From positions 1,287,501 through 1,351,500 of the forward strand of contig NZ_CP107921.1 of assembly GCF_036014215.1 (NCBI RefSeq): a stretch of 64,000 nt of DNA, read 5' to 3'. The stretch comes from Streptomyces sp. NBC_00440 (GTDB lineage: Bacteria; Actinomycetota; Actinomycetes; Streptomycetales; Streptomycetaceae). Made by a program: the position numbers and the translations under genes. Below, piece by piece: positions 39,946 through 62,484 of this stretch. Positions within the stretch are counted from its first letter, which is position 1. Every line of letters starts with the position of its first letter. The notes beneath the pieces are model-generated. The model saw only the letters and a program-made list of their open reading frames with translations, did not search any database and was not told the DNA's origin.

Positions 39946-39956
39946 ACATCGGATGT
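39946..39956. promoter_or_regulatory. Putative fucose-regulon operator, copy 1
   Basis: ACATCGGATGT is a perfect palindrome around one central base. It lies 20 bp before the start of the GntR-family gene. The same 11 bases occur before the GH95 fucosidase gene, with one change before the L-fuconate dehydratase gene. Confidence 0.7.
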
Positions 39957-39975
39957 CTGTTGAGGCGAGGTTCCC

Positions 39976-40647
39976 ATGGCTGTGACCGACGAGGCCATCG
40001 AGAAGATCAAGGAAATGATCGTCTCGGGCGCACTGCGGCCAGGCGACCGGCTGCCCAAGGAGAGCGAACTCGCCGCGGATCTCGGCCTTTCGCGCAACTC
40101 GCTGCGCGAGGCGGTGCGCGCGCTCTCGCTGATCCGCATCCTCGACGTGCGGCAGGGCGACGGCACGTACGTCACCAGTCTCGATCCCCAGCTGCTCCTC
40201 GAAGCGATGAGCTTCGTCGTGGACTTCCACCGGGACGACACCGTGCTGGAGTTCCTGGCCGTACGCCGCATCCTGGAGCCTGCCGCGACGGCGATGGCCG
40301 CGCACCGGATCAGCGAGGAGGAGCTGGAGGCGCTCAGCGCCCAGCTGGACGCGCTCGGCCCGCAGCCCTCCGTGGAGGAACTGGTCGCCGGCGACCTGGA
40401 GTTCCACCGGGGCATCGTGCAGAGCTCGGGGAACTCGGTGCTCTGCTCGCTGCTCGACAGCCTCTCCGGGCCCACCACCCGCGCCCGGGTGTGGCGGGGA
40501 CTGACCCAGGAGGACGCGGTGAGCCGTACGCTCCACGAGCACCGCGCCATCCTGACGGCGCTCAGGGACCGGGACGCCGAAGCGGCCCGGTCCTGGGCCA
40601 CGGTGCACATCGCCAGCGTCGAGCAGTGGCTGCGCTCGACCCTGTGA
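39976..40647 (+). CDS. FadR-subfamily GntR regulator of L-fucose genes
   Basis: A 223-residue regulator. The GntR winged helix (about 5-70) contains RPGDRLPKESELAADLGLSR and the wing GDGTYVTS. The C-terminal FCD domain has the likely metal-binding set in DLEFHRGIVQ and HEHRAILTALRDRDAEAA. FCD-type GntR proteins typically sense sugar acids or related acids. The palindrome before its own gene, also found before fuconate dehydratase and fucosidase, points to control of L-fucose use. It is convergent with the ABC transporter genes across a strong hairpin. The GAGG-type ribosome-binding site precedes ATG 39976. Confidence 0.9.
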   Translation: MAVTDEAIEKIKEMIVSGALRPGDRLPKESELAADLGLSRNSLREAVRALSLIRILDVRQGDGTYVTSLDPQLLLEAMSFVVDFHRDDTVLEFLAVRRILEPAATAMAAHRISEEELEALSAQLDALGPQPSVEELVAGDLEFHRGIVQSSGNSVLCSLLDSLSGPTTRARVWRGLTQEDAVSRTLHEHRAILTALRDRDAEAARSWATVHIASVEQWLRSTL

Positions 40648-40701
40648 GTACGGGGGCCCCCGGGGCCGGGCCGCGATGGCCAGGCCCCGGGGGCCCCGTA
40701 C
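40648..40701. terminator. Bidirectional terminator between regulator and ABC permease
   Basis: Arms at 40648-40667 and 40683-40701 pair over about 19 bp, with one extra base in the left arm. It lies directly after the regulator stop and 66 bp from the convergent permease stop. Confidence 0.8.
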
Positions 40702-40766
40702 TGCGAGTGCGTCCCGGTGGCGCGCCCTGGGTGTACGTCCCGGGGCGGGCCGGGGTGGCGCCTCCG

Positions 40767-41801
40767 TCAGTCCTGCTCCTCACCGCTCGCGAAGCGGGAG
40801 GCGATCAGCGCGATGATGATGATCGCGCCGTTGAGGAACGTCTCCCACTGGCCGGGCACCCCGGCGAGCGTCATCACATTGACCACCAGCTGGAGGGCGA
40901 GCACACCGGTGAGCGCGCCGAAGATGGTGCCCCGGCCGCCCTTCAGCCCGATGCCGCCGATGACCGCGGCCGCCATGACCTGGAAGATCATGTCCTTGCC
41001 CTGGGCCGCGCCGACCGAACCGTAGTGGCCGGTGTAGAGGATTCCGGCGAAGGCCGCGAGCAGCCCGCCGATCGCCAGCACGATCCAGGTGACCCGGTCC
41101 ACCCGGATACCGGCCGCGCGGGCCGCCTCCGGGTTGCCGCCGATGGCGTACAGCGACCGGCCGTGCCGGGTCCACGCCAGCGCGGCCCCGCCGATGGCGA
41201 ACAGCGCCAGGCAGATCCAGACCGCGGCGGGGGCGCCGAGCCAGGAGGCCCTGCCCAGGTAGCTGAACGAGGCCGGGACATCGATGATCGACTTGCCCTC
41301 GGTGATCCCGATGTGCAGCCCGCGGAGCATCATCAGCATGCCCAGCGTCGCGATGAAGCCGTTGACGCGCAGCTTGAGCATCAGGAAGCCGTTGAACGCG
41401 CCGATCGCGAGACCCGCGAGCAGGCAGAGCGGGATCGCCGTCCAGGCGGGCAGCAGCCCCAGACCGGTGAACCGGTCGCCCGACGAGGGCAGCACCAGCC
41501 ACAGCGCGATGACCGGCGCGATACCGATCGTCGACTCCAGTGACAGGTCCATCCGCCCGCAGATCAGGATGAAGGCCTGGGCCAGCACCAGCAGGCTGAG
41601 TTCGGAGGACTGCTGGATGACGTTGATCAGGTTCTGGGACGTCAGGAACACCGGTGAGACGATGAATCCGATCACCATCAGCACCAGGATCACCGGCACG
41701 AGCGAGAAATCGCTCCAGCGGACCAGGGCCAGCCTGGCGCGTACCGGGCTCACCTGGCCCTTGGTCTCCTCGGCCGCTGCCGGCCGGATCGTGTCGGTCA
41801 T
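40767..41801 (-). CDS. ABC sugar transporter permease (RbsC type), probable L-fucose
   Basis: A membrane permease of the ribose/xylose/fucose ABC family, 344 residues with eight to ten predicted helices. The family motif GGGR-type EAARAAGIRVDRV in the cytoplasmic loop and GGIGLKGGRGTIFGAL are present. Its start overlaps the ATPase stop by four bases (ATGA), implying coupled translation. It is the last gene of the SBP-ATPase-permease set. Linkage to L-fuconate dehydratase and the shared regulator suggests L-fucose as substrate. Confidence 0.9.
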   Translation of the reverse strand: MTDTIRPAAAEETKGQVSPVRARLALVRWSDFSLVPVILVLMVIGFIVSPVFLTSQNLINVIQQSSELSLLVLAQAFILICGRMDLSLESTIGIAPVIALWLVLPSSGDRFTGLGLLPAWTAIPLCLLAGLAIGAFNGFLMLKLRVNGFIATLGMLMMLRGLHIGITEGKSIIDVPASFSYLGRASWLGAPAAVWICLALFAIGGAALAWTRHGRSLYAIGGNPEAARAAGIRVDRVTWIVLAIGGLLAAFAGILYTGHYGSVGAAQGKDMIFQVMAAAVIGGIGLKGGRGTIFGALTGVLALQLVVNVMTLAGVPGQWETFLNGAIIIIALIASRFASGEEQD

Positions 41802-43333
41802 GCCCGTTCCCCCACACCTTCCATGGCGGCGACCAGTTCCCCGTCCGTCCACCCACTGTCGTATTCGGCGACCACCCGCCCGTGGAAGAGCGCGACCACC
41901 CGGTCGCACACCCGCAGGTCGTCGAGTTCGTCGGAGATGATCACGGCGGCGTTGCCCTCGTCGGCGACCCGCCGCACCACGCCCAGGAGCGAGTCCTTGG
42001 ACTTGATGTCCACGCCGGCCGTCGGCCGTACGGCCACCAGCGTGCTGGGGTTACGGGCCAGCGCGCGGGCCACCACCACCTTCTGCTGGTTGCCGCCGGA
42101 GAGCCCGGAGACCTTCTGGTCGGGCCCGGTGGTCTTGATGTCCAGCGAGGAGATCATCGTCCTCGCGAACTCCCGGGTACGGGAGGGGAGTACGGTCCCC
42201 CACGGCCCCAGCTGGTCGGCGACCGTCAGGGTGGCGTTCTCCGCCACGCTGCGCTCCAGGACCAGACCCTGGCGGTGCCGGTCCTCCGGGATGTAGCCGA
42301 TCCCCGCGTTCAGGGCGTGCGGCACGCTGCCCGGTCTGACCTCGCGGCCCCGGACCGAGACCCGCCCGGAGGTCGCCCTGCGCATACCGACGAGCGTCTC
42401 CCCCAGCGCGGTGTTGCCACTGGCCGCGGCGCCCGCGATACCCAGCACCTCACCGGGGTGCACCTCGATGTCCAGCGGCTCGAACTCGCCGTCGACAGCG
42501 AGCCCTTCGGTGCGCAGGACGGGCTCCTCCGTCCCGGTCGCGGCCGTCGGCCCGGCACCGGAGGCCGCGTGCCAGGCCACCGGGCCCGTCACGGACTCAC
42601 CGGTCATGGCGGCGACCAGATCGGCCTTGCCCAGCTCGGCGACGGGCGCCGTCAGGACGTGCCGGGCGTCGCGGTAGACCGTGACCGCGGTGCACAGCTC
42701 GTACACCTCCTGGAGGTGGTGCGAGATGAAGAGGAACGCCACCCCCTGGCTCTGGAGGTCCCTGAGCTTGGTGAACAGGCTCTGGATCCCCCGTGCGTCG
42801 AGCTGAGCGGTGGGTTCGTCGAGGATGATCAGCCGGGCCCCGAAGGACAGCGCGCGGGCGATCTCCACGAACTGCACCTGTTCGACGGAGAGGTCCTTCG
42901 CGCGGGTGCTGGGGTCGATGTTCACCCCGTACTCGGCGAGCAGCGCCGCGGCCCGCTTGCGCAGCCCGGACCAGCTGATCCAGCGGCCGCCCCGCGCACC
43001 GCGGTCGATGCCGAAGTTGTTCAGGAAGAGGTTCTCGGCCACGGTGAGATCGGGGACGGCCATGGACTTCTGGTAGACACAGGCGACCTTCGACTGCCAG
43101 GCCATGGTGTCGCCGAAGGCGGGCGCGGGCTCACCGCTGAAGGTGACCGTCCCCGCGTCCGGCTTGTGGAGTCCGGTGATGACGCTGACGAGGGTGGACT
43201 TTCCGGCGCCGTTGCGCCCGACCAGGGCGTGCGACTCACCGGGCTGGACTGTCAGGCGGACATCGTCGAGTGCGACGGTGGGACCGAAGCGCTTGACGAT
43301 GCCCTGCGCATGAACCGCGGGTGCATCGGGCAT
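41798..43333 (-). CDS. ABC sugar transporter ATPase (RbsA type), second domain degenerate
   Basis: A 511-residue protein with two nucleotide-binding domains. The first has intact Walker A (GRNGAGKST), a signature-like LSVEQVQFVEIARAL and Walker B (LIILDEPTAQLD). In the second, Walker A reads GAAASGNTAL, with no Lys, and Walker B reads VAVRPTAGVD, without the Asp-Glu pair. LSGGNQQKVVVARAL is kept as the second signature. One composite ATP site is thus probably active, as in other asymmetric ABC pairs. ATG 43333 is two bases after the binding-protein stop. It is coupled to the permease by a four-base overlap. Confidence 0.9.
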   Translation of the reverse strand: MPDAPAVHAQGIVKRFGPTVALDDVRLTVQPGESHALVGRNGAGKSTLVSVITGLHKPDAGTVTFSGEPAPAFGDTMAWQSKVACVYQKSMAVPDLTVAENLFLNNFGIDRGARGGRWISWSGLRKRAAALLAEYGVNIDPSTRAKDLSVEQVQFVEIARALSFGARLIILDEPTAQLDARGIQSLFTKLRDLQSQGVAFLFISHHLQEVYELCTAVTVYRDARHVLTAPVAELGKADLVAAMTGESVTGPVAWHAASGAGPTAATGTEEPVLRTEGLAVDGEFEPLDIEVHPGEVLGIAGAAASGNTALGETLVGMRRATSGRVSVRGREVRPGSVPHALNAGIGYIPEDRHRQGLVLERSVAENATLTVADQLGPWGTVLPSRTREFARTMISSLDIKTTGPDQKVSGLSGGNQQKVVVARALARNPSTLVAVRPTAGVDIKSKDSLLGVVRRVADEGNAAVIISDELDDLRVCDRVVALFHGRVVAEYDSGWTDGELVAAMEGVGERA

Positions 43334-43335
43334 CG

Positions 43336-44373
43336 TCAGTTCTTCTTCCCCAGCTGATTGGCCCACAGCTTCGGGTCGTTCACATTGGCCTTGGTCACGA
43401 GCGGCGCGGGGAGCTGGTCCTCGTAGCCGTTCGGGATCTTGATGATGTGGGAGTCGTGGTCGGTCGGGCCCACCTTGAACTTCTTGCCGTCGACGGCCGC
43501 CTTGGCGTAGTACAGCGCGTACTTGGCGTAGAGGTCGGCGGGCTGGGAGATGGTCGCGTCGATCTTCCCGGCCTTGATCGCGTCGAACTCCTCCGGGATG
43601 CCGTCGTTGGAGATGATCGTGATGTGGCCCTTGGTGCCGGCCGGCTTCAGCAGCTTCTTCTGCTCCAGGAGCGCGAGCGTGGGCTGCAGGAAGACACCGC
43701 CCGCCTGCATGTAGATCCCGTTGATGTCGGGGTTGGCGGCCAGCGTGGACTGGAGCTTGGCCGATGCGACATCGCCCTTCCAGTCGGTGGCCAGCTCGAA
43801 GACCTTGATCTTGGGGAAGTTCTTGGTCATGCAGGACTTGAAGGCGACGGAGCGGTCCCGGCCGTTGATCGACGACAGGTCGCCCTGGAACTCGACGACC
43901 TTGCCCTTGCCCTTCAGCTGCTTGCCGAGGTACTTGCAGGCGTTCTCGCCGTACGCGCGGTTGTCTGCGCGGACCACCATGTAGACGTCGCCCTTGTCGG
44001 GGCGGGTGTCGACACTGATGACGGGAATCTTCTTCTTGTTGAGGTTCTGCAGCGTCGAGGCGATGGCCCCGGTGTCCTGCGGCGCCATCACGACGGCCTT
44101 GGCGCCCTGGTCGCTGAACGTCTGGACGTTGGCGACGAGCTTGCCGATGTCGTTCTGCGAGTTGGTCAGCGGGAGCGCCTTGACCTCACCGGCCGCGACG
44201 CCCTTCTTGATGTACTGCTGGTAGGAGTTCCAGAAGTCGCTGTCGCTGCGCGGCAGATCGATGCCGACCTTCTTGTCCTCCGAACCGCTGCCGGAGTCGC
44301 GGTTGCAGCCCGCGAGGGCGGTCACGGCCAGCAGTACGGCGCAGGCCGCCGCACTCGTTGTACGCACTCTCAT
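43336..44373 (-). CDS. ABC sugar-binding lipoprotein (RbsB type), probable L-fucose
   Basis: A 345-residue lipoprotein. The signal peptide ends in the lipobox LAGC, and the mature part has the periplasmic-binding-protein type I fold with the sugar-binding pattern near KKVGIDLPRSDSDFW, VISVDTRPDKGDV and IISNDGIPEEFDAI. It captures a monosaccharide for the permease and ATPase encoded after it. The gap to the ATPase start is two bases. Upstream, 104 bp separate it from the SDR gene on the same strand, so it may also be read from the fuconate dehydratase promoter. Confidence 0.9.
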   Translation of the reverse strand: MRVRTTSAAACAVLLAVTALAGCNRDSGSGSEDKKVGIDLPRSDSDFWNSYQQYIKKGVAAGEVKALPLTNSQNDIGKLVANVQTFSDQGAKAVVMAPQDTGAIASTLQNLNKKKIPVISVDTRPDKGDVYMVVRADNRAYGENACKYLGKQLKGKGKVVEFQGDLSSINGRDRSVAFKSCMTKNFPKIKVFELATDWKGDVASAKLQSTLAANPDINGIYMQAGGVFLQPTLALLEQKKLLKPAGTKGHITIISNDGIPEEFDAIKAGKIDATISQPADLYAKYALYYAKAAVDGKKFKVGPTDHDSHIIKIPNGYEDQLPAPLVTKANVNDPKLWANQLGKKN

Positions 44374-44433
44374 TGGTGTCCCGTCCTTGATAGTGGCGCT
44401 TGATGCTCTGTCGGCCGTGCGGCCCGGTGTGCA

Positions 44434-44470
44434 CAGTGCGTGTGTTCAGTGCGTGTGTTCAGTGCGTTCG
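44434..44470. repeat. 13-bp tandem repeat between SDR and binding-protein genes
   Basis: CAGTGCGTGTGTT occurs twice without a gap and a third partial copy follows. It lies in the leader of the sugar-binding lipoprotein and reaches close to the SDR stop. Confidence 0.85.
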
Positions 44471-44477
44471 CTTCTGC

Positions 44478-45257
44478 TCAGTCGGCGGCGGGGCGCAGGC
44501 GCAGTCCCTGCATTCCGCCGTCGACCGCGAGTGCCGTCCCGGTGACGGCCGCCGCCGCGGGGCTCGCGAGGTAGAGGACGGCCGCCGCCACCTCTTCGGC
44601 GGTGACCAGCCGGCCGGTGGGCTGGCGGGCGTTGAGCGCCGCGCGCTCGGCGGCCGGGTCGTCGGCCTGGCCGAGCAGCCGCCCGACCCACGGGGTGTCC
44701 GCGGTACCGGGGTTGACGCAGTTGACCCGGATGCCCTCCCGTACGTGGTCGGCCGCCATGGCCAGGGTCAGCGAGAGGACCGCGCCCTTGCTGGCGCTGT
44801 AGAGGGCGCGCTGCGGCAGGCCGGCGGTCGCGGCGATCGAGCAGGTGTGGGTGACGGAGACGCAGCCGGGCCGCTCGGCGGCCGAACGGCGCAGGTGCGG
44901 CAGCGCGTGGCGGGCGGTGCGGACCATACCGAGGACGTTGATGTCCAGGACCCGCTGCCACTCGTCGTCGGGGTTGTCGGCGACCGTGCCGACGGCGCCG
45001 ATGCCCGCGTTGGACACCACCGTGTGCAGTGCGCCGAACTCGGCCGCCGCGGCGTCGACCGCCTCCCGTACCGCGCCGTCGTCGGTGACGTCCGCCTTGA
45101 GCGCGAGGGTGCCGTCCGGCGCTCCCTCGGTCTCGCGGTCGAGTACGGCGACCCGGGCGCCCCGGGCGAGCAGCTCGGTGGCGATGGCGGCTCCGATGCC
45201 GGAAGCTCCGCCGGTGACCAGGGCGCCGAGCCCTTCGAAGTCGCGTGCAGTGGTCAC
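44478..45257 (-). CDS. SDR dehydrogenase of the L-fucose pathway
   Basis: A 259-residue classical [15 protein letters not shown] binds the cofactor, SNAGIG is the core motif, and the active site has Ser in HTCSIAA and YSASK. The GTG at 45257 overlaps the stop of the L-fuconate dehydratase gene (GTGA). In the non-phosphorylating L-fucose route, SDRs act as L-fucose dehydrogenase or as 2-keto-3-deoxy-L-fuconate dehydrogenase. Tight coupling to the dehydratase favours the latter, but the sequence does not settle it. Confidence 0.88.
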
Positions 45258-46579
45258 GAGTTGACCTCCTCGGTGGTGCGGCGGGCCTGCCAGACGGGCC
45301 CGTCGGGGTAGCGGTGTGCGGCGAGGGAAGCGGGGTGCATACGGGCGGAGAAGCCCGGGGCGCGGGGCGCCAGATAGCGTCCGCCCTCGATCACCGCGGG
45401 GTCGGTGAAGTGTTCGTGCAGATGGTCCACGTACTCGATGACGCGGTCGTCCTGGCTGCCCGACACGGCGACGAAGTCGAACATCGCCAGGTGCTGGACC
45501 AGCTCGCACAGTCCGACGCCGCCCGCGTGCGGGCAGACCGGGACGCCGAACTTGGCCGCGAGCAGCAGGATCGCGAGGTTCTCGTTGACTCCGGCGACCC
45601 GGGCCGCGTCGATCTGTACGAAGTCGACGGCGCCGGCCTGGAGCAGCTGCTTGAAGACGACCCGGTTGGCGACGTGCTCACCGGTGGCGACCTTCACGGG
45701 CTGCCCGGATCTGACCGCCGCGTGGCCCAGGATGTCGTCGGGGCTGGTCGGCTCCTCGATCCAGTGCGGGTCGTACGGCGCGAGCGCGTCCATCCACCGC
45801 AGCGCGTCCGCGACGTCCCAGCGCTGGTTGGCGTCCACGGCGACCCGGATGCCGGGGCCGACGGCCGCGCGGGCCAGCTTCATCCTGCGGACGTCGTCGT
45901 CCAGGTCGGCGCCGACCTTCAGCTTGATCTGTCCGAAGCCGGCGTCGACCGCCTCCTGGGCGAGCCGCACCAGCTTCTCGTCGGAGTACCCGAGCCAGCC
46001 GGGCGACGTGGTGTACGCGGGGTAGCCGTCGGCGCACAGCAGGGCGGCCCGTTCGGCGCGGCCGGGTTCGGCGGCGCGCAGGATGGCGAGGGCCTCGTCG
46101 GGGGTGAGGGCGTCGGTCAGATAGCGGAAGTCGACCAGCGAGACGAGCTCCTCCGGTGTCATCCCGGCCAGGAACTCCCAGACCGGCTTGCCGGCGACGG
46201 TGGCCGCCAGGTCCCAGGCGGCGTTGATGACCGCGCCCGCCGCCATGTGCATCACCCCCTTCTCGGGGCCGAGCCAGCGCAGCTGCGAGTCGTGGGTGAG
46301 ATCGTGGTGCAGCTCCGCGAGCCCGGCGGCGGTGAGCGGCGCGGGCCGCCCCTCCACGTAGGGCCGCAGCGCTTCGATGGCGGCGGCGATGACGTCGTTG
46401 CCGCGCCCGATGGTGAAACAGAAGCCATGTCCCGCGACACCGCCCGGCAGATCGGTGCTGAGCACCACATAGGCCGCCGAGTAGTCGGGGTCCGGGTTCA
46501 TGGCGTCCGAGCCGTCGAGCTGTTCCGAGGTGGGGAATCGGATGTCGTGGACCTCGAACCCCGTGACGGTCGGACTCAT
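45254..46579 (-). CDS. fucD: L-fuconate dehydratase
   Basis: An enolase-superfamily enzyme, 441 residues, that removes water from L-fuconate to give 2-keto-3-deoxy-L-fuconate. [20 protein letters not shown] is the N-terminal capping segment. [10 protein letters not shown] contains the catalytic Lys of the KxK motif. Metal ligands lie in [18 protein letters not shown] and [30 protein letters not shown] contains the general-acid His and is typical of fuconate dehydratase and human ENOSF1. The ATG at 46579 has AAGGGAG at normal spacing; the upstream frame has none. The putative operator lies about 60 bp upstream. Confidence 0.93.
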
Positions 46580-46639
46580 CCACACTCCCTTGGTAAGAAC
46601 GTTGGTAAGAACCGTTAAGAACATCGGACCTTTAATTTG

Positions 46640-46650
46640 TCATCCGATGT
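46640..46650. promoter_or_regulatory. Putative fucose-regulon operator, copy 2
   Basis: TCATCCGATGT, the reverse complement of ACATCGGATGA; one base differs from the copies before the regulator and fucosidase genes. The flanking AT is also shared, giving ATACATCGGATG in all three sites. It lies 61 bp upstream of fucD. Confidence 0.7.
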
Positions 46651-46764
46651 ATAGCCCCGTACATGCCGCAGCGTCCAGAGGTGGGACGAAATTTGACCGG
46701 TACAGCTCGGATGAATCGGTTCGATATGGGCAGACTGCCGGAACGGCTCGTCCAGTTGCCGGGA

Positions 46765-46806
46765 CGTACAACCCGGTGCACGCCGGGACGTACGCCGGGT
46801 TGTACG
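46765..46806. repeat. Perfect 12-bp inverted repeat before the PAC2 gene
   Basis: CGTACAACCCGG (46765-46776) and its exact complement (46795-46806) are separated by 18 bp. GCCGGGACGTAC occurs twice as a direct repeat across the same region. It is either an operator or a hairpin in the leader. Confidence 0.8.
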
Positions 46807-46890
46807 GGGGCGTGCGCAAGGGCTGCGTCCGGGCACCCGGGAAGCCGTAAGGTTGGTCCGTAAGAGAAGAACTTCGGAGGGAGGCACTGG

Positions 46891-47913: not shown

Positions 47914-47968
47914 TGAGGGCGGCGGCCCCTCCGGGGGCAGACCGTAATCCCGGTCCTGCGGAACGGAA

Positions 47969-48001
47969 TCGCCCCCGGGCTCCTGTGGAGTCCGGGGGCG
48001 A
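47969..48001. terminator. Bidirectional terminator between PAC2 gene and mshC
   Basis: A perfect 10-bp stem (47969-47978 with 47992-48001) with a 13-nt loop lies between the converging genes. Confidence 0.75.
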
Positions 48002-48022
48002 CGGGGAAAGAGCGGGGCGTCC

Positions 48023-52689: not shown

Positions 52690-52755
52690 GACGGGACGGC
52701 CGGGGGCCGCTTGCCCGGCGGGCCCGGCGGCCGCCGCACGGGGGCGGGTACGGGT

Positions 52756-53743: not shown

Positions 53744-53782
53744 GCAGACCTCTCCCGGCTTCCCGGGAGCTGTGTGGCCCGG

Positions 53783-54832: not shown

Positions 54833-54972
54833 GACCGCTCCCTTACTGCTGAGTAACGTCCCTGTTCCGGGGACTCTAGCGCGCGGGGGCAAGATCCGTC
54901 AGGGGGTGGTCCAGGGGGTGGTTGTCCACAGGCCTGCACCGGGCGGCCCTGTGGCCAGTACTCTCAGCGCCC

Positions 54973-55956
54973 ATGGAGCAGAGGCATCTCGGCCGCACGG
55001 GCCTGCGCGTATCCCGGATCGGGCTCGGCACCCTCACCTGGGGGCGGAGCACCGACGAGCACGACGCCGCCGACCTGTTGAAGGCGTTCTGGGAGGCCGG
55101 CGGCACACTCGTCGACACGGCCGATGTGTACGGCGACGGAGAAGCCGAGTATCTGCTCGGGCAGCTCTGCGAACGGCTGATACCCCGCCGCGATCTCGTC
55201 ATCGCCACCAAAGCGGGCAGCGTGCCCGACCCCTACCGCCGGTTCGACGGCTCGCGCGGGCATCTGCTGGCGGCGCTCGACGCCTCACTGGAGCGGCTGG
55301 GGACCGACTACGTGGATCTGTGGCAGGTGCACGCCTTCGACCCGGAGACCCCGCTGGACGAGACGCTCCAGGCACTGGACATCGCGGTCTCCAGCGGTCG
55401 GGCGCGGTACGCGGGGCTGTCCAACTTCTCCGGCTGGCAGTTGGCCAAGGCCGCCACCTGGCAGCTGGCGGCGCCGGGCGTCAGGACCCGCATCGCCAGT
55501 ACGCAGATGGAGTACTCGCTGCTCCAGCGCGGGGTGGAGCGGGAGGTGCTGCCGGCCGCGGTGGACCTGGGGGTGGGGCTGCTGCCGTCGTCGCCGCTGG
55601 GTCGCGGGGTGCTCACCGGCAAGTACCGCCATGGGACTCCGGTGGACTCGCGCGGGGCGTCGGAGCAGCTGGCGCCCTTCGTCGCGCCCTATCTGGACGA
55701 CGCCGCGAGCAGGATCGTCGACGCGGTCGCCACGGCGGCCGACGGGCTCGCGACCACGCCGCTGGAGGTCGCGCTGGCCTGGGTCCGCGACCGGCCCGGG
55801 GTGGTCGCCCCGATCATCGGCGCGCGCAACGCGCAGCAGCTCGCGGCGGCATTGTCAGTGGAGACGCTTAGTCTTCCTGACGAGATCTGCCGGGCGCTCG
55901 ACGATGTGTCGGAGCCCGTTCACCGTTATCCCGACCAGGACTGGACCGAGCTGTGA
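54973..55956 (+). CDS. Aldo/keto reductase
   Basis: A 327-residue NADPH-dependent reductase with a TIM barrel. The tetrad is present: Asp and Tyr in DTADVYGDGEAE, Lys in VIATKAG and His in LWQVHAFDP. The NADPH site includes the late IIGARNAQQL segment. The start at ATG 54973 is supported by the MEQRHLGRTGLRVSRIGLGT opening. The stop overlaps the GTG start of the RecD2-like gene by four bases (GTGA), so the two are co-translated, although no functional link is evident. Confidence 0.92.
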   Translation: MEQRHLGRTGLRVSRIGLGTLTWGRSTDEHDAADLLKAFWEAGGTLVDTADVYGDGEAEYLLGQLCERLIPRRDLVIATKAGSVPDPYRRFDGSRGHLLAALDASLERLGTDYVDLWQVHAFDPETPLDETLQALDIAVSSGRARYAGLSNFSGWQLAKAATWQLAAPGVRTRIASTQMEYSLLQRGVEREVLPAAVDLGVGLLPSSPLGRGVLTGKYRHGTPVDSRGASEQLAPFVAPYLDDAASRIVDAVATAADGLATTPLEVALAWVRDRPGVVAPIIGARNAQQLAAALSVETLSLPDEICRALDDVSEPVHRYPDQDWTEL

Positions 55957-58334
55957 GTACGGATCGCCTCGACACCGAGGCCAGCACCGAGGCCGAGGCC
56001 GCTCCCGGCGCCGAAGCCGCACCGGAGACGGAACCGGAATCGGAAACGGCGCCCGACACCGGGAGTGCTGCTGAGACCGGTACGGGTACCGGGCCGGAAG
56101 CAGCTCCGGGGAGCGTGTCCAGGCCCCCCGGCGGGAGCGACGGGAGCGACGGCGGGAGTGCCGACGGGGACGGCGGGGACGGCGGGGCCACGGCGGCCGG
56201 GGCCTCGGAAACCGGAGCCACGGACGGCGCGGGGACGGCCGAGGAGACGTCCGAGGCGGAAACGGCGGAGGGCGCCGGGACGGCCGAGGCACCCGCCCTG
56301 TCGGAGGCCGAAGCCGAACTGGCGGCCCAGCGCGAGCTGCGGGCCAGAATCGAGCAGCGCAAAGCCGCGAAGGACGGGCCCATCGAGGCCGGCATGAAGC
56401 TGAGCGGCCGGGCCGCCGACCTGCTGGCCGCGGTCCGGGCGGTGGAGGGCGGCGAGAAGCCCTCCGCGCACTTCCCTCCCCCGGCACCCGAGCCGCGCCG
56501 CCCCGCGCCTGCCCCGCAGGCCGAGCCACGCCCCGCGGTGCGTCCGGCCGCCGCGCCCACCGGTGCGGCGCCCGAGAGCGTGTCGTCCGTGCGGGCCGTC
56601 CTGGCCGCCGGCGGCGCCCCCGAGTCCCTGGCCGTACGGGCCGCCGAGACGCTCGGCGACCAGGCTGCCGACGCCCTGCGCGAGGACCCCTGGCAGTTGC
56701 TGTCGGTTCCCGGGGTACGGCCGGAACAGGCGGACGGCTTCGCCCGTGCGCTGCTCGGCCCGGAGGCCGGACCCGGCGACGAGCGGCGGGCCGCCGCTCT
56801 GGTGGGCTGGCTCCTTGAGCGGGCCGCGCTCCAGGGGCACACCGCGCTGGAGTCGGACGCGGTCCGCGCGGCGCTCGCCGAGCGGTCCGTGCCGGACCCC
56901 GACGAGGCGCTGCAGAGCGCTGTCGCGGACGGCGCGGTGCTGGTCTTCCAGGACGCGCTGGACACCGCCCCAGGGGCACCCGCCGCGCAGGAGGCCGGGC
57001 ACGACGGGCACGACGACGTCGGCTCAGGGAGCGAGGACGAAGCGGCGCCGCAGCCCGTGCGGGTCCTGCTGGGTCTCGACCGGTACGCACTCGCGGAGGA
57101 GAGCCTGGCGGACGGCCTCGCCCGGCTGGTGAACGCGTCCGCCCTCGCCCCCGGCGGCGAACAGGCCGACTGGGAACAGGCCGCAGCGGACGCCCCGTCC
57201 CCGTCGGCCGCCGAACTGATCCGGACGGTCGCACGGAACGGCCTGGTCGCCCACACCGGCGGCGAGGCCGCCCGCAGCGAACCGGCCGCAGTGGTCACGG
57301 CGGCGCGCGCGCTGGGCCTGCAGGCGTACGCGGCCGCGCACACCCCCGACGGTAGGCGGCGGCTGGCCGCCGCACTGGACGATCCGGCGGCGGCCGTCAC
57401 CGTCTCCGGGCTGCTGACCGGTTCGGAGGGGCCGGGACGGGACGGCGAGGGCGCTCTGGCGCTCGATCTGCTGGCCGTCGTGGACGCCCCCCAGCTGGAT
57501 GTCGAGAGCGCGGCCGTACTGGTCGAGTCGCTGGCCGACGGCAGCCGCCTGGTCCTCAGCGGGGATCCCGGGGTGCTCGGTTCCGCCGGTGCCGGGCAGG
57601 TGTTCACCGATGTCCTCGCGGCGCGCGCCTGCCCGCAGCTGGCCTCCCGCACCCCCGATCCGGGCCCCATCGGCGAGCTGGTCTCGGGAATCGGGATCGG
57701 CGAGCTGAACCAGGTGGCGGCGCCCGGCAAGGAAGTCGTGATCGTCCCCGTCCAAAACGCCGGTGAGGCGGTGCACCGCACCGTGCAGCTCGTCGCCGAC
57801 TCCGTACCCCGGGCCATCGGCGTGCCGGTGTCCGACACCCAGGTCATCACCCCGGGCCACGGCGGCCCCGCCGGTACCCGCGCGCTCAACGCGGCCCTGA
57901 AGGAACGTCTCAACCCCGGCCCCGGCCGCTTCGGCGGTTTCGATCCCGGTGACCGGGCCGCCTACACCCCGGCGCCCGGCAGGACCCTGCCCGGCACGGT
58001 GGTCTCGGCCGACGGCGACGGCCTGCACCTGGACTGCGCCGGCACGCCCGTCGTCGTACCGAAGGACCGGGTGGAGGCATCGGTACGGCACGGCTGGGCA
58101 CTCACCGCGCACCAGGCAGCCGGGCTGCGGTGGCCCGCGGTGGTCGTGGTGCTGCCCGGCGACGCGGCGAGCGGGCTGAGCCGGCCGTGGGTCTACACCG
58201 CGTTCGGCCGCGGCGAACGGCATCTCTCGGTGGTGCACGGAGTCGACCAGGCACTGCCGCACGCGGTGGCCGAAGTCCCCGCCCGGCCCCGCACCACCCG
58301 GCTGCGCACCCTGCTGCGGCCGGCCGCGGTCTAG
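55953..58334 (+). CDS. RecD2-like HHH protein with degenerate helicase motifs
   Basis: A 793-residue protein. Residues 1-190 are a low-complexity Glu/Ala/Gly/Pro-rich region. Residues about 205-310 match the helix-hairpin-helix part of RecD2, including DQAADALREDPWQLLSVPGV and ALVGWLLERAALQGHTAL. The rest follows the RecD2 helicase order, but each motif is altered. The Walker A region (about 430) reads HTGGEAARSE, with no GKT. Walker B (about 505) reads VVDAPQLD instead of DE. Motif III (about 534) reads SGDPGVLGSAG. The HxxQGxE region (about 719) reads HQAAGLR, and YTAFGRGE (about 747) replaces the YTAxTRA type. It probably binds DNA or partners without hydrolysing ATP. Confidence 0.8.
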   Translation: MSTDRLDTEASTEAEAAPGAEAAPETEPESETAPDTGSAAETGTGTGPEAAPGSVSRPPGGSDGSDGGSADGDGGDGGATAAGASETGATDGAGTAEETSEAETAEGAGTAEAPALSEAEAELAAQRELRARIEQRKAAKDGPIEAGMKLSGRAADLLAAVRAVEGGEKPSAHFPPPAPEPRRPAPAPQAEPRPAVRPAAAPTGAAPESVSSVRAVLAAGGAPESLAVRAAETLGDQAADALREDPWQLLSVPGVRPEQADGFARALLGPEAGPGDERRAAALVGWLLERAALQGHTALESDAVRAALAERSVPDPDEALQSAVADGAVLVFQDALDTAPGAPAAQEAGHDGHDDVGSGSEDEAAPQPVRVLLGLDRYALAEESLADGLARLVNASALAPGGEQADWEQAAADAPSPSAAELIRTVARNGLVAHTGGEAARSEPAAVVTAARALGLQAYAAAHTPDGRRRLAAALDDPAAAVTVSGLLTGSEGPGRDGEGALALDLLAVVDAPQLDVESAAVLVESLADGSRLVLSGDPGVLGSAGAGQVFTDVLAARACPQLASRTPDPGPIGELVSGIGIGELNQVAAPGKEVVIVPVQNAGEAVHRTVQLVADSVPRAIGVPVSDTQVITPGHGGPAGTRALNAALKERLNPGPGRFGGFDPGDRAAYTPAPGRTLPGTVVSADGDGLHLDCAGTPVVVPKDRVEASVRHGWALTAHQAAGLRWPAVVVVLPGDAASGLSRPWVYTAFGRGERHLSVVHGVDQALPHAVAEVPARPRTTRLRTLLRPAAV

Positions 58335-58340
58335 GTCCTG

Positions 58341-58381
58341 TACGGGCGGCGGCCGGGGCAGTTGCCCCGGCCGCCGCCGTA
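58341..58381. terminator. Bidirectional terminator
   Basis: A stem of about 19 bp with one bulged G (58341-58360 with 58363-58381) and a tiny loop, between the converging RecD2-like and acidic-protein genes. Confidence 0.8.
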
Positions 58382-58408
58382 CCGGATACCGGACGTCCTA
58401 CGCCCGGA

Positions 58409-59128
58409 TCAGACCCTCTCGCCCTCCGGGTCCCCTTGCGCGGAGGACGCATCGGCGTCGTCGTCGGCGCCGTCATCCTCATCGTCGTCGTCATCGCCAT
58501 CGAGCAGTTCCTCGTCGTCGAAGACGGAACTGACGTCGAACCGGCACACGATCTGCTGCGGGTCCGCCTGGTCGAACGGAGTGCTCAGCCACTCCCCCGG
58601 CTCGGGCAGGTCGTCCGCCGCCGAGACCCAGAGCGTGGAGTCGCCCTCCTCAAGGCCGAACTCCTTGTGCCGCGAGGCGATCTCGTCCGGTTCGTACTCA
58701 CCGAACAGCACCCCCAGAGCGGCGTGCACGCTGTTGCCGACGACAGCCCCCGCGCCCGGTCCGCCGTCCGCCTCCGGGTCGAGGTCCACGATGCGCTGCG
58801 CCTGCCCGAGCAGCCGCTGCGGCTGGGCCACCGCGTAGTCGCGGCGGATCAGCACCGTGAGCGCGTGCGGATCGTCGGGGCCCGCATACGGCGGCAGTGC
58901 GTCGTCCGCAGCGGGAATCTCGAAGGGAGTGACCTCGTCGTACCGGTCGTAGAGCCTCTCGTCGTACGCCTCGGCGGCCGCGGCGAGCGCGTTGAACGCG
59001 TCGTAAACGGCCGGGTCGTCCTCTCCCGTACGGGCTTCGACCGCGTCGAGGTGACGGTCCAGCGCGGCTTTGACCGCCTCGGCGGCGGCGCGTACCTCGG
59101 CAGCCGTGGGCTGCGCAGCATCAGACAT
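58409..59128 (-). CDS. Conserved hypothetical acidic protein
   Basis: A 239-residue cytoplasmic protein. The first half is helical and Ala-rich, the middle contains ALTVLIRRDYAVAQPQRLLG and VVGNSVHAALGVLFGEYEP, and the tail has an Asp/Glu run (LDGDDDDDEDDGADDDADA). I do not recognise a domain. ATG 59128 has no clear ribosome-binding site, but upstream in-frame codons are less plausible because they enter the divergent promoter region. It lies between a RecD2-like gene and a DUF5703 gene, a neighbourhood that seems stable in Streptomyces. Function unknown. Confidence 0.75.
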   Translation of the reverse strand: MSDAAQPTAAEVRAAAEAVKAALDRHLDAVEARTGEDDPAVYDAFNALAAAAEAYDERLYDRYDEVTPFEIPAADDALPPYAGPDDPHALTVLIRRDYAVAQPQRLLGQAQRIVDLDPEADGGPGAGAVVGNSVHAALGVLFGEYEPDEIASRHKEFGLEEGDSTLWVSAADDLPEPGEWLSTPFDQADPQQIVCRFDVSSVFDDEELLDGDDDDDEDDGADDDADASSAQGDPEGERV

Positions 59129-59175
59129 AGGGCAGACGCTATCCGTACCGGGCCTCTGCCCGCACAATAGATGCG

Positions 59176-59364
59176 ATGCCGGAATACGAATTTGTCGACG
59201 TGTACGTACCGCGCGGGGTCTCCCGCAAGGATGCGACACGCCTGCTCACCGACCATGCCGAGTACGGACACTGGGAGTTGGACCGACTGAGTCTGCACCG
59301 GGACGGCAGCCGCAGGGTGCGGCTGCGCCGGCGCATCATTCGCCAAGTGCGCGCCACATGGTGA
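59176..59364 (+). CDS. DUF5703 family small protein
   Basis: A 62-residue basic protein: MPEYEFVDVYVPRGVSRKDA at the start and an Arg-rich C-terminus (RRVRLRRRIIRQVRATW). It matches the small DUF5703 proteins found across Streptomyces. No function is known. ATG 59176 lies five bases after an out-of-frame ATG. It is divergent from the acidic-protein gene across 47 bp. Confidence 0.82.
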   Translation: MPEYEFVDVYVPRGVSRKDATRLLTDHAEYGHWELDRLSLHRDGSRRVRLRRRIIRQVRATW

Positions 59365-59366
59365 AG

Positions 59367-59402
59367 AGGGAGCGGGTCCCGCGACTGCGGAACCCGCTCC
59401 CT
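59367..59402. terminator. Bidirectional terminator
   Basis: AGGGAGCGGGT (59367-59377) and its perfect complement (59392-59402) lie between the converging DUF5703 and long-chaplin genes. Confidence 0.8.
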
Positions 59403-59433
59403 TCCATGCGTACGCGTGGGGCTCAGCAGCCCG

Positions 59434-60231
59434 TCACGCGGCTGCCCGGGACCGCCTGTACAGGATGATCCCCCCGAGCACCATCCCGGCACTCGCCGGA
59501 ATGATCAGCCCGAGCGGGGCAGTACCGGTGTGCGCGAGCTGCTCGGTGCCCGAGGGCACCGAAACGGTCTGCGCGACCGGGGCGTGCGGCGCCGCGGGCT
59601 TCGGCGGGGTGCTCGGCGTGTGACCGCGCGGCGTTCCCGGGTGCTCCGGATGACCCGGCTGACCGGGGTGGACCGGGTGGTGCGGGACGTGGACCGGCGG
59701 CGGGACGCTCTCGTCGTTGGCGCAGTTGTTGCCGAAGACCGGGTTGAGCAGGCCGACGACATCGACGCTGTTGCCGCAGGCGTTCACGGGCACGTCGAGC
59801 GGAAGCTTGACGTTGTTGCCGGAGAGAACGCCGGGCGAACCACTCGTGTCGCCCTGTGCCGTCGCTCCGCCACCGCTGTGGCTGCCGGTGCCGCTGTTGT
59901 GGCTGCCGCCGTTGTTGCCGGGGGCGCGGTGGTGGCCGCTGCCCTGCCCCTGGTGCCCGCCCCCGGTGTGGGACGTTCCGGAGCCGGACGGCCCGTTGCT
60001 GCACCTGTTGCCGAATGCGGGGTTGAGCAGTCCGACCACGTCGACGGTGTTGCCGCAGACGTTCACCGGCACGTGCACCGGCGCCTGGATCGAATTGCCG
60101 GAGAGCACTCCGGGCGAATTCGCTGCGGTTCCGTCAGCCGACGAGTCCGCGTACGCGTAGCCACCGCTCAGGGCGAGCACTCCACCCGCGGCCGCAACGG
60201 TGATCAGGCCTTTCTTCGTGACCTGGCGCAT
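59434..60231 (-). CDS. Long chaplin with two chaplin domains and LAXTG sorting signal
   Basis: A 265-residue secreted surface protein of the ChpA-C type. After a signal peptide (LITVAAAGGVLALSGGYAYA) come two chaplin domains, each with VNVCGN- or VNACGN-type strands and LLNPAFGN/LLNPVFGN, joined by a Gly/Ser/His-rich linker. A Pro/His-rich spacer leads to LAHTG (about 232-236), a hydrophobic helix and RRSRAAA, the signal for a class E sortase. Long chaplins are anchored to the wall and help short chaplins coat aerial hyphae. AGGAAA precedes ATG 60231. Confidence 0.95.
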   Translation of the reverse strand: MRQVTKKGLITVAAAGGVLALSGGYAYADSSADGTAANSPGVLSGNSIQAPVHVPVNVCGNTVDVVGLLNPAFGNRCSNGPSGSGTSHTGGGHQGQGSGHHRAPGNNGGSHNSGTGSHSGGGATAQGDTSGSPGVLSGNNVKLPLDVPVNACGNSVDVVGLLNPVFGNNCANDESVPPPVHVPHHPVHPGQPGHPEHPGTPRGHTPSTPPKPAAPHAPVAQTVSVPSGTEQLAHTGTAPLGLIIPASAGMVLGGIILYRRSRAAA

Positions 60232-60301
60232 AGGTTCGTTTCCTGCCTTCTACCTTCCGGAAATGCCCGCGGACATCGTCGCCCTTGGGCCGAATGCCCC
60301 T

Positions 60302-60338
60302 CCGGCCCCGGAGCGCATGGCGCGCGCTCCGGGGCCGG
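60302..60338 (-). terminator. Terminator of the short chaplin gene
   Basis: A perfect 15-bp stem (60302-60316 with 60324-60338) with a 7-nt loop, between the short and long chaplin genes; it separates their transcripts. Confidence 0.85.
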
Positions 60339-60373
60339 CGGGGCTCCGACCCTCGCGGGTCGGGGGCACAACG

Positions 60374-60607
60374 TCAGACGTTGGCGCAGGTGTTGCCGAA
60401 GGCGGGGTTGAGCAGCCCGATCACAGAGACCGTGTTGCCGCACACGTTCACCGGGATGTGAACGGGCACCTGAACAACGTTGCCCGAGATCACGCCGGGA
60501 GAGTGCACAGCGGCACCCTGAGCGCCCGAGTCGGCGACGGCCATGCCCGCACCCGCGAGCACGAGACCACCGGTGACTGCCGCAGCGGCGACGACCTTCT
60601 TGATCAT
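60374..60607 (-). CDS. Short chaplin
   Basis: A 77-residue secreted surfactant protein of the ChpD-H type. The signal peptide ends near MAVADSGAQG, and the mature part is one chaplin domain with VPVNVCGNTVSVIGLLNPAF and a second Cys in the final GNTCANV. It would assemble into amyloid fibrils at the air-water interface during aerial growth. AGGAGG lies five bases upstream of ATG 60607. It is followed by its own terminator, then by the long chaplin gene on the same strand. Confidence 0.95.
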   Translation of the reverse strand: MIKKVVAAAAVTGGLVLAGAGMAVADSGAQGAAVHSPGVISGNVVQVPVHIPVNVCGNTVSVIGLLNPAFGNTCANV

Positions 60608-60752
60608 TAGTTCCTCCTAGTCGGCAAATACGGTCCAGACTGCGGACCGCACCACCTGTAACGAGGAGAACCCTGCGGGGCTACGAACCAATCGCCCCAT
60701 TCACTCTTTCCGGTCGCATACGCACGTACAGCCGATTAGTTGGAAAGTCGGT

Positions 60753-62087
60753 TCAGCACTTGTCCAGGAAGCGGTCGAGTACCCGTACACCGAACTTCAG
60801 ACCGTCGACCGGCACCCGCTCGTCGACCCCGTGGAACATTCCGGCGAAGTCCAGCTCGGGCGGCAGCTTCAGCGGCGCGAAGCCGAAGCAGCGGATGCCC
60901 AGGTCGTCGAAGGACTTGGCGTCCGTACCGCCCGACAGCATGTACGGCACCGCCCGCGCAATCGGGTCCTCGGCCTTCAGCGCCACCTGCATGGCGTCGA
61001 CCAGGTCCCCGTCGAAGCCCGTCTCCAGCGCCTTGTCGCCGTGCACGTCCTCGCGCCTGACCCGGGGGCCGAGGAGCTTGTCGAGGTCGGTCAGGAACTC
61101 CTCCTCGTAGCCGGGCAGGAAGCGGCCGTCGACATGGGCCGTCGCCTGTCCGGGGATGACGTTCACCTTGTAGCCGGCGCCGAGCATGGTGGGCGCGGCC
61201 GAGTTGCGCAGGGTCGCGCCGACCATCTTCGCGATGCCGCCCAGCTTGGCGAGGGTCGCCTCCATGTCCTCGGGGTCCAGCGGGGTGCCGAGCGCGTCGG
61301 ACAGCTCGTCGAGGAAGGACCGCACGGTCTTGGTGACCCGCACCGGCCACTGGTGGCGCCCGAGGCGTCCCACCGCCTCGCAGAGCTCGGTGATGGCGTT
61401 GTCGGTGTTGGTCATGGAGCCGTGGCCGGCGGTGCCGTCCACGGTGAGGCGCATCCAGTGCATGCCCTTCTGCGCCGTCTCCACGAGATACAGCCGCAGA
61501 TTCTCGTTGACGGTGAACGAGAAGCCGCCGACCTCACCGATCGCCTCCGTGACGCCCTCGAAGAGATCCGGGTGGTTGTCGACGAGGTGGCGCGCGCCGT
61601 AGGTGCCGCCCGCCTCCTCGTCGGCGAGGAAGGCCAGGACGATGTCGCGCGGGGGCTTGCGGCCGCTGCGCAGCCTGTCCCGTACGACCGCGAGGGTCAT
61701 CGCGTCCATGTCCTTCATGTCGACCGCGCCGCGGCCCCAGACACAGTCGTCCACGACCTCCCCGGCGAAGGGGTGGTGCGTCCAGTCGTCGGCGTTGGCC
61801 GGGACGACGTCGGTGTGGCCGTGGATGAGGAGCGCGGGCCTGGACCGGTCCTCGCCCTCGATCCGGGCCACCGTGGACGCGCGCCCCGGGTGGGACTCGA
61901 AGATCTGCGGTTCGAGACCGACCTCGGCGAGCTTCTCCGCCACGTACTCGGCGGCGGCCCGCTCACCCGGCCCCGAGTGGTCGCCGTAGTTGCTGGTGTC
62001 GATCCGGATCAGGTCACGACAGAGGTCCACGACCTCGTCCTCACCGGAGACGACCCGTCCGGCGTCTGTCCTGCTGGGCTCGCTCAC
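60753..62087 (-). CDS. M20-family metallopeptidase
   Basis: A 444-residue dizinc peptidase of the M20/M25/M40 family. LLIHGHTDVVP has the first zinc His and catalytic Asp, GRGAVDMKDM has the bridging Asp, and LAFLADEEAGG has the catalytic Glu and zinc Glu. The lid domain (about 200-320) includes GTAGHGSM. The final zinc His is in DFAGMFHGVDERV. The substrate is likely a dipeptide or N-acyl amino acid. GTG 62087 follows GGGAGGAAAC. It lies upstream of the short chaplin gene on the same strand, with no clear link. Confidence 0.9.
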   Translation of the reverse strand: MSEPSRTDAGRVVSGEDEVVDLCRDLIRIDTSNYGDHSGPGERAAAEYVAEKLAEVGLEPQIFESHPGRASTVARIEGEDRSRPALLIHGHTDVVPANADDWTHHPFAGEVVDDCVWGRGAVDMKDMDAMTLAVVRDRLRSGRKPPRDIVLAFLADEEAGGTYGARHLVDNHPDLFEGVTEAIGEVGGFSFTVNENLRLYLVETAQKGMHWMRLTVDGTAGHGSMTNTDNAITELCEAVGRLGRHQWPVRVTKTVRSFLDELSDALGTPLDPEDMEATLAKLGGIAKMVGATLRNSAAPTMLGAGYKVNVIPGQATAHVDGRFLPGYEEEFLTDLDKLLGPRVRREDVHGDKALETGFDGDLVDAMQVALKAEDPIARAVPYMLSGGTDAKSFDDLGIRCFGFAPLKLPPELDFAGMFHGVDERVPVDGLKFGVRVLDRFLDKC

Positions 62088-62275
62088 GCTGTTTCCTCCC
62101 GCTGTCGCTGCTGGTGGTCCCCTGCCCCATCCTCGCCCGCGCCACCCCCCGGACCCAAGCGCCGGGACCGGTCGTCATACACGGTTCACAGACTCCGGCT
62201 CGTGATCGAGCACCTCCCAATGTTTGCTATGGTTTTCCACGTCGGAACGGCCCGGGGCCGCGAGACAGACACCTT

Positions 62276-62363
62276 GTCCGGGTGGCGGAATGGCAGACGC
62301 GCTAGCTTGAGGTGCTAGTGCCCTTTATCGGGCGTGGGGGTTCAAGTCCCCCCTCGGACACCA
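62276..62363 (+). tRNA. tRNA-Leu, anticodon GAG
   Basis: Class II cloverleaf of 88 nt with encoded CCA. The acceptor arm GTCCGGG pairs with CTCGGAC (one G-T). The anticodon stem is CTAGC/GCTAG with loop TTGAGGT and anticodon GAG at 62309-62311. A variable arm (TGCCCTTTATCGGGCG) forms a short stem, and the T-loop TTCAAGT follows GGGGG. It reads CUC and CUU. Confidence 0.97.
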
Positions 62364-62371
62364 GATCGGAT

Positions 62372-62405
62372 CAGAAGAACCCCAGCTGCTGCTGGGGTTC
62401 TTCTG
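62372..62405 (+). terminator. Terminator after tRNA-Leu
   Basis: A perfect 15-bp stem (62372-62386 with 62391-62405) with a 4-nt loop, starting 9 bp after the tRNA. Confidence 0.9.
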
Positions 62406-62473
62406 CGTTTACGGGACCGCCGCCGGCCGTGCGTGCGGGCCATACCTGCGGGCCGCCACGCCTCGCAGGCAAT

Positions 62474-62484
62474 ACATCGGATGT
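62474..62484. promoter_or_regulatory. Putative fucose-regulon operator, copy 3
   Basis: ACATCGGATGT, identical to the copy before the GntR regulator gene and with ATACATCGGATG shared by all three copies. It lies about 130 bp upstream of the GH95 fucosidase start, 16 kb from the other sites. Confidence 0.7.

Follow-up and report, generated by a model that had tools for sequence, protein, structure and literature searches.

Regulators such as LldR, GlcC, UxuR, ExuR and DgoR combine a GntR-type helix-turn-helix (HTH) domain with an FCD domain, and FCD domains bind organic acids through a metal. Here we describe a regulator of this type, encoded by gntR at 39976-40647 of a 64,000-nucleotide stretch of DNA (the window; C1:1287501-1351500) from the 8.68-Mb genome of Streptomyces sp. 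NBC_00440 (G000), together with an operator word, ACATCSGATGT, that lies before gntR itself, before fucD of the neighbouring L-fucose locus and before a GH95 fucosidase gene at the end of the window. Judging from the sequence, we consider it quite probable that the GntR protein is a repressor which acts through this word, or through the 15-mer AKACATCSGATGTMT, on the release, import and oxidation of L-fucose.

The kind of system is known, both as sugar-acid GntR regulons and as fucose regulons under other regulators, one of which, the Bacteroides thetaiotaomicron FucR, may itself be GntR-like. The FadR-subfamily GntR regulons (LldR, GlcC, UxuR, ExuR, DgoR), as described in the available part of PMC4494728, resemble the present locus in their palindromic operator, autoregulation and local operon, and operators with two or three sites are described there as fairly common. 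The operator of that subfamily consists of TKGT/ACMA boxes with GT and AC 2-3 bases apart, whereas the half-site here is ACATC, with AT/AT where GT/AC would be expected (80 sites); the assignment of our regulator to the subfamily by its domains stands despite this mismatch, because the same source names members with other motifs. A further difference is that the predicted regulon extends to numerous genes for secreted glycosidases outside the locus; the main text of this source does not contain the word fucose.

Loci for oxidative L-fucose use in Halomonas and other bacteria of microbial mats (PMC5507952, available part) likewise have a fucD-type pathway, a COG1028 dehydrogenase, ABC uptake and predicted sites of a regulator (FucR), whereas the regulator here is an FCD-type GntR and sites also lie at GH29 and GH95 genes. 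Other regulators of fucose genes are the Campylobacter FucR, an IclR-type repressor, the Escherichia coli FucR, a DeoR-family activator, and the Bacteroides thetaiotaomicron FucR, a repressor released by fucose; two of the three are thus repressors, and the family is IclR or DeoR where the available text of PMC12566272 states it. C. jejuni is described as being without fucosidase in the accessible part of PMC7685106. Trichoderma reesei FUR1 is, like our candidate, one regulator for the catabolism of L-fucose, for extracellular alpha-L-fucosidases and for other enzymes that cut polysaccharides, but it is a fungal transcription factor of an unrelated organism and raises expression (PMC12370193, available part); the Bifidobacterium FucR is likewise a sugar regulator assigned to fucose (PMC4746261, available part). 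A literature search, which covered open-licence papers and is no proof of absence, gave no description of a GntR fucose regulon for Streptomyces among the matches listed, and the accessible text of the rhamnose-regulon paper PMC3870299 contained nothing on a fucose GntR.

The fucose locus and its probable operator word

The sequence-only reading had reported a palindromic 12-mer before gntR (39944), before fucD (46641, reverse strand) and before the GH95 gene, at 20-130 base pairs (bp) from the start codons. Three exact matches of the 12-mer, ATACATCGGATG, were indeed found in the window, at 39944-39955 (plus strand), 46641-46652 (minus strand) and 62472-62483 (plus strand), and the 11-base palindrome lay 19 bp before the ATG of gntR (39976), 60 bp before that of fucD (46579, minus strand) and 128 bp before that of the GH95 gene (62613), within a base or so of the distances claimed. 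The term palindrome held for the core, ACATCSGATGT, which is perfect at 39946-39956 and 62474-62484, but not for the 12-mer itself, nor for the fucD copy (46640-46650), which has one mismatch. At up to two mismatches, ATACATCGGATG matched four times in the window, the fourth match being the other strand of the first site, versus 1.39 times (standard deviation 1.23) in shuffled sequences; ACATCGGATGT at the same tolerance was no commoner than in shuffles (13 versus 10.8).

The GntR protein has an N-terminal HTH domain (PF00392, E 3e-18) and then an FCD domain (PF07729, E 3e-26). Each match exceeds its curated cut-off, and by this domain order in its sequence the protein is an FCD-type (FadR-subfamily) regulator. 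Its residues D140, H144, H189 and H211 align with identical residues in 2DI3 and other FCD proteins, and Asp140, His144, His189 and His211 are putative ligands of the FCD metal. A minus-strand operon that encodes FucD, an SDR dehydrogenase, a sugar-binding protein, an ABC ATPase and a permease converges on gntR. FucD matched the solved enzyme 2HNE over residues 3-430 of the 440-residue query (667.8 bits, E 7e-200), and this almost end-to-end similarity of sequence marks it as a predicted L-fuconate dehydratase. The genes and predicted promoter elements, with positions in the window, are as follows.

39932-39937, plus strand: CATAAT, -10-like element of gntR by its sequence, just before the operator
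39946-39956, unstranded: predicted gntR operator ACATCGGATGT, 28.1 bits in the position weight matrix (15-mer ATACATCGGATGTCT at 39944-39958)
39976-40647, plus strand: gntR, regulator of 223 amino acids with GntR HTH and FCD domains (Pfam PF00392, PF07729)
40767-41801, minus strand: sugar ABC transporter permease (Pfam PF02653); the NCBIfam matches seen were all below cut-off
41798-43333, minus strand: sugar ABC transporter ATPase with two ABC domains (Pfam PF00005, two stretches)
43336-44373, minus strand: candidate sugar-binding lipoprotein (Pfam PF13407)
44478-45257, minus strand: SDR dehydrogenase with a GTG start, candidate 2-keto-3-deoxy-L-fuconate dehydrogenase (Pfam PF13561; putative substrate suggested by operon position)
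45254-46579, minus strand: fucD, L-fuconate dehydratase of 441 amino acids, with a near full-length match to PDB 2HNE and its ATG at 46579
46621-46631, unstranded: fucD, weak downstream site resembling the operator, minus-strand sequence AGGTCCGATGT, 0.1 bits
46640-46650, unstranded: primary predicted fucD operator, ACATCGGATGA on the minus strand, 15.3 bits, overlapping a TATACAT -10-like box at 46647-46653
46673-46678, minus strand: CTGGAC, -35-like element of fucD, kept in the promoters of relatives
46704-46714, unstranded: fucD, weak upstream site resembling the operator, minus-strand sequence TCATCCGAGCT, 1.2 bits
62474-62484, unstranded: predicted GH95 operator ACATCGGATGT, 25.3 bits, conserved in the diverged DNA of genome G023
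62531-62536, plus strand: TTGACA, -35-like element of the GH95 gene by its sequence
62548-62558, unstranded: second weak site ACATCGTACGT in the -10 region of the GH95 gene, 6.5 bits, 74 bp from the first (12.2 bits in G023)
62613-64000, continuing beyond the window end, plus strand: candidate GH95 alpha-L-fucosidase, 801 amino acids in full (Pfam, PDB)

The full GH95 gene encodes the N-terminal (PF14498), catalytic (PF22124, 4-408 of 408) and C-terminal (PF21307) domains of the family, and the start of its product looks like a twin-arginine-type signal. Its best PDB match is 7ZNZ (E 4e-115), which, like the next best, carries the name of a GH95 alpha-1,2-fucosidase; from these similarities the product is a candidate alpha-L-fucosidase, in a family that also includes alpha-L-galactosidase activity. 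A tRNA-Leu (gag) lies directly upstream of the gene (62276-62363), and G023 has the end of this same tRNA at the equivalent place.

Conservation and placement of the predicted operator

Conservation at gntR was followed in the best 80 of 538 confirmed relatives in named genomes (91-99% identical; hosts Streptomyces, Actinacidiphila and one unassigned actinobacterium). A site was present within 170 bp upstream of gntR in all 80, as an exact copy in 57, with one mismatch in 19 and with two in the remaining four, and CATAAT stood no more than 30 bp before the operator in 75. The matrix built from the 80 sites reads A-[GT]-ACATCSGATGT-[CA]-T.

Next to gntR, fucD is found in 31 of the 80 loci, and all 31 fucD genes have the same three-part promoter, with an upstream site, a primary site over a TATACAT-like -10 element and a downstream site. 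The downstream site fits the pattern AGRTCCGATGT in every case, 18-21 bp beyond the primary site, the upstream site lies 62-65 bp from the primary one in 30 promoters, and CTGGAC-N15-21-TAYACRT is likewise present in 30; these search patterns were written after the promoters had been viewed. Helical phasing of the paired sites was considered as proof of looping and rejected, because the spacing is tight at fucD but 74, 63 and 108 bp at other genes, so that it amounts to a suggestion. In the other 49 loci gntR and its operator are present but fucD is missing from the available DNA, which contig ends cut short in some of them. The fucD operon (window 40767-46579) is a block that loci either have or lack between gntR and a PAC2-family gene, and many genomes of the genus set described below carry a fucD of about 70% identity at another place.

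Co-occurrence was assessed in a genus set of 101 genomes, with one mismatch allowed to the 15-mer AKACATCSGATGTMT. The 15-mer was present in 57 of the 60 genomes with a gntR of at least 80% identity versus 6 of the 35 without any match (Fisher 3e-15), a p-value that, like others of this kind, is inflated by shared ancestry. Two further groups were kept apart: the 15-mer occurred in all three genomes with a gntR at 68-70% and in one of the three with paralogues at 50-55% only. It was found in none of the five genomes that have fucD but no gntR match, and fucD itself was present in 53 of the 60 gntR genomes versus 11 of the other 41.

The frequency of the word in the genome is a different matter. 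ACATCSGATGT occurs exactly at seven places, versus 3.75 (standard deviation 1.8) expected from an order-4 Markov model trained on the window; the 15-mer AKACATCSGATGTMT occurs 17 times at up to two mismatches versus 14.5, and five times at up to one mismatch versus 1.0 (p = 0.004). This null is generous, since it expects 124 copies of the 11-mer at up to one mismatch where 55 were observed. Because 3.75 exact palindromes are expected in any case, their number alone is not evidence, and the word count was rejected as proof of a regulon; a control with the reversed pattern, which gave no matches, overstates rarity, as that pattern contains TAG/CTA, presumably rare in such genomes. The evidence for the operator is its placement and conservation, not the rarity of the word.

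Matrix scores were obtained for 50 of the 55 sites at up to one mismatch, and genes were viewed only at the best-scoring ones. Of the seven exact palindromes, three are upstream sites, at gntR, the window GH95 gene and one GH29 fucosidase gene, while two fall within coding sequence of no related function. The copy at L100:7001 is flanked by a gene for a sugar-binding protein and by a ROK regulator, and that at L098:5001 covers what reads as the probable start codon of another gene for a sugar-binding protein, which adjoins an alpha-galactosidase gene. For an 807-amino-acid protein encoded near the ROK/ABC site (L100:87-2510), no PDB sequence match was found.

Sites at fucosidase genes

Family searches of the same genome gave five GH29 and three GH95 genes, and the 15-mer site (up to two mismatches, within 300 bp before the gene or its operon) was found at six of these eight. 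The chance of such a result is about 4e-19, or 7e-16 for five of seven when the seed gene is left out. The glycosidase genes with sites are listed below with the seventh fucosidase gene; those other than the window gene lie 0.5-6.5 Mb away from the window locus.

Window 62613, plus strand: GH95-1, the window gene, site at up to two mismatches
L226, start 6029, minus strand: GH95-2, site at up to two mismatches, with a pair of sites around promoter-like sequence as at GH95-1
L227:3300: GH95-3 through its lead gene, which has the site before it; operon suggested by the 75-bp gap
L177:5076: GH29 gene, site at up to two mismatches
L101:6858, minus strand: GH29 gene, site at up to two mismatches
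L157:2579: GH29 gene with an F5/8C domain, site at up to two mismatches
L178:2646: seventh fucosidase gene, weaker site of 9.8 bits

No site was found at the eighth fucosidase gene (L225:4087), in which a signal peptide was also missing by eye, whereas the other fucosidase N-termini (for GH95-3, that of its lead gene) read as secretion signals.

Two further candidate targets were noted. The third GH95 operon is headed by a gene for a secreted protein of 596 amino acids (L227:3300-5090; C1:1806299-1808089), with the site upstream; the protein has no Pfam match, no PDB sequence match and more than 1000 homologues, and the sole lead is a predicted fold that resembles GH67/GH138. A ninth candidate, a beta-helix protein (L180:2-2437, minus strand), has operator-like sites upstream at 2501 and 2609, 108 bp apart; it was found through these sites and was therefore left out of the count of six in eight. 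It matched BT_1002 (5MQP) with E 1e-13, the best stretch covering residues 259-340 only; BT_1002 is, we presume, the founding member of GH141. In addition, a sialic-acid locus (L231, C1:7809000-7815500) with nanA-, nanK- and nanE-like genes and a sialate transporter has its own FCD GntR, 28% identical to that of the window, and a site TGAGACATCAGATGTCCTA (centre 3448) nearly the same as the fucose operator; binding by the two regulators could therefore overlap.

In other genomes, a site of at least 9 bits near the start was found at 24 of 69 GH29 genes in gntR genomes versus none of 15 in genomes without gntR (Fisher 0.004), and 27 of the 69 had a site within 1.5 kb (Fisher 0.002). The 69 comprise the 28 best per-genome matches and 41 further ones taken roughly in list order from among the matches listed; genes at contig edges, one with an inner stop and others for reasons of number were skipped, the genes of our own genome were left out, and two of the 69 had almost no upstream DNA. 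The 15 are all matches listed for genomes without gntR and include weaker-scoring types scarce among the 69, so that the GH29 types are not the same in the two groups. Genomes with gntR at 68-70% were counted as having it and those with paralogues at 50-55% as lacking it. Five of a batch of 60 GH29 upstream regions (L316-L320), chosen after nearby sites had been seen, were excluded; two of the five have a site near the start. Relatives of our 802-amino-acid GH29 protein for which upstream DNA was available had a site within 1.5 kb in 13 of 13 cases, ten of them at the predicted start.

GH95 behaved differently as a family, and it was rejected as a genus-wide target, with an upstream site of at least 9 bits at four of 26 homologues (G000, G023, G062 and, weakly, G045). 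The genes of G000 and G023 are the window gene and its 93% orthologue, both with the site. The sequence ATACATCGGATGTC is identical in G023 although the flanking DNA has changed on both sides, and the second site in the -10 region is kept as well. From these comparisons, recruitment of the window GH95 gene to the regulon appears to be confined to this lineage. Taken together, the gene families, the unbroken conservation of the site at gntR (80/80) and fucD (31/31), its co-occurrence with gntR in the genus set and its retention at the G023 GH95 gene support the original proposal that release, import and oxidation of L-fucose belong to one regulon. Its proposed extent, however, was too narrow: all three genes named do have sites, and so do most of the GH29 and GH95 genes of this genome.

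Alternatives, mechanism and meaning

Several observations weigh against a fucose regulon under this repressor. The word is about as frequent in the genome as the Markov null predicts, and some of its sites lie within unrelated or coding DNA. Among the 35 genomes without a gntR match, six still have one 15-mer each, and seven of the 60 gntR genomes have kept gntR without a fucD or GH29 match at the thresholds used. Sites near the start were missing at 45 of the 69 sampled GH29 genes in gntR genomes, at the two closest relatives of our 499-amino-acid GH29 protein and, at 9 bits or more, upstream of 22 of the 26 GH95 homologues, 18 of which are in gntR genomes. A putative pair of genes for early fucose oxidation, described below, has a site of only 4.4 bits. 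Finally, the sign of regulation at the fucosidase genes is uncertain, because the stronger site lies upstream of the promoter.

It is possible, if rather unlikely, that the regulator responds mainly to a sugar or acid related to L-fucose, such as L-galactose/L-galactonate or a compound from pectin breakdown, with the fucosidases as part of a response to plant cell walls. The seven genomes with gntR and without fucD and GH29 (G006, G016, G030, G058, G080, G082 and G088; gntR 80-91% identical) fit such a signal; six of them have one 15-mer each, which lies before gntR in at least two (G080, G082) and on another contig in G016, and in these genomes gntR may be a relic or may serve some other function. 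Sites before the GH141-like gene, the sugar-binding-protein genes near the ROK and alpha-galactosidase genes and the gene with the GH67/GH138-like fold point the same way. Against this, the most consistent distant targets are GH29 and GH95 genes, and the occurrence of gntR follows that of fucD.

We regard it as unlikely that the sites are real but bound by another FCD-type GntR paralogue, or shared by several. Many genomes do have paralogues of 48-55% identity, some of them close to a second copy of fucD, and the NanR-like FCD GntR of our own genome has TGAGACATCAGATGTCCTA beside its nanA/nanK/nanE-like genes. However, only one protein of this genome reaches E 1e-60 against the window GntR, and the 15-mer tracks the close orthologue (57/60) rather than the 50-55% paralogues where these occur without it (1/3).

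Activation instead of repression at the fucosidase genes is improbable. It would suit the GH95 promoter, where 46 bp separate the strong site from the TTGACA downstream of it, but two GH95 genes, this one included, have a weak second site on the -10 region or immediately behind it, and the gntR and fucD operators are placed at the -10 element or just behind it. That the window GH95 site is a chance match and the gene stands outside the regulon is very improbable: about 3.8 exact palindromes are expected per genome and most GH95 homologues have no upstream site, but ATACATCGGATGTC is kept in G023 amid diverged DNA, the site scores second to that of gntR alone among the own-genome loci scanned, and two further GH95 genes or operons of this genome also have sites.

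We therefore return to the GntR protein as a repressor of fucose release, import and oxidation. That it binds these sites and represses rather than activates is what we infer, and repression fits because the operator lies just behind CATAAT at gntR and over the -10 element at fucD. At GH95-1 and GH95-2 the paired sites suggest, from their arrangement, a repressor holding both, perhaps cooperatively. Without inducer, a GntR dimer would sit on the operators behind the gntR -10 element and over that of fucD, together with the two weaker flanking sites, and would also occupy the sites upstream of secreted fucosidase promoters across the chromosome, keeping them down. In the presence of fucosylated glycans, fucosidases made at a basal level would free L-fucose for import by the ABC transporter, and its oxidation would yield an acid (L-fuconate or 2-keto-3-deoxy-L-fuconate) that the FCD domain would take up, so that the repressor leaves its operators. 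The signal is likely L-fuconate or its dehydration product rather than L-fucose, because FCD domains bind acids and the four residues are present. A pair of genes for an aldo-keto reductase and an L-fuconolactonase-like protein lies about 4-6 kb behind a GH29 gene (L177:11213-13030); the lactonase relative matches NF052480 with E 1e-68 and 232 bits, below the cut-off of 400, and by similarity the pair may catalyse the first two reactions in the oxidation of fucose.

A wider idea, to which we give a low probability, is that GntR uses L-fucose, through its acid, as a sentinel for complex fucosylated polysaccharides such as pectin side chains. It would then command GH29, GH95 and GH141-like enzymes together with an undescribed secreted family of GH67/GH138-like fold, and it would share its operator language with the sialic-acid regulator, so that fucose and sialate circuits could overlap.

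If the regulon is real, one operator word would mark most of the fucose-releasing enzymes of a Streptomyces-type genome, wherever they are located, and would lead to an unclassified family of secreted enzymes. It would also provide a candidate inducer and a set of promoters for making fucosidases. An FCD-type GntR would then be the fucose switch of these soil bacteria, where the fucose regulators with a stated family, in the available parts of the sources cited above, are of the DeoR or IclR type.

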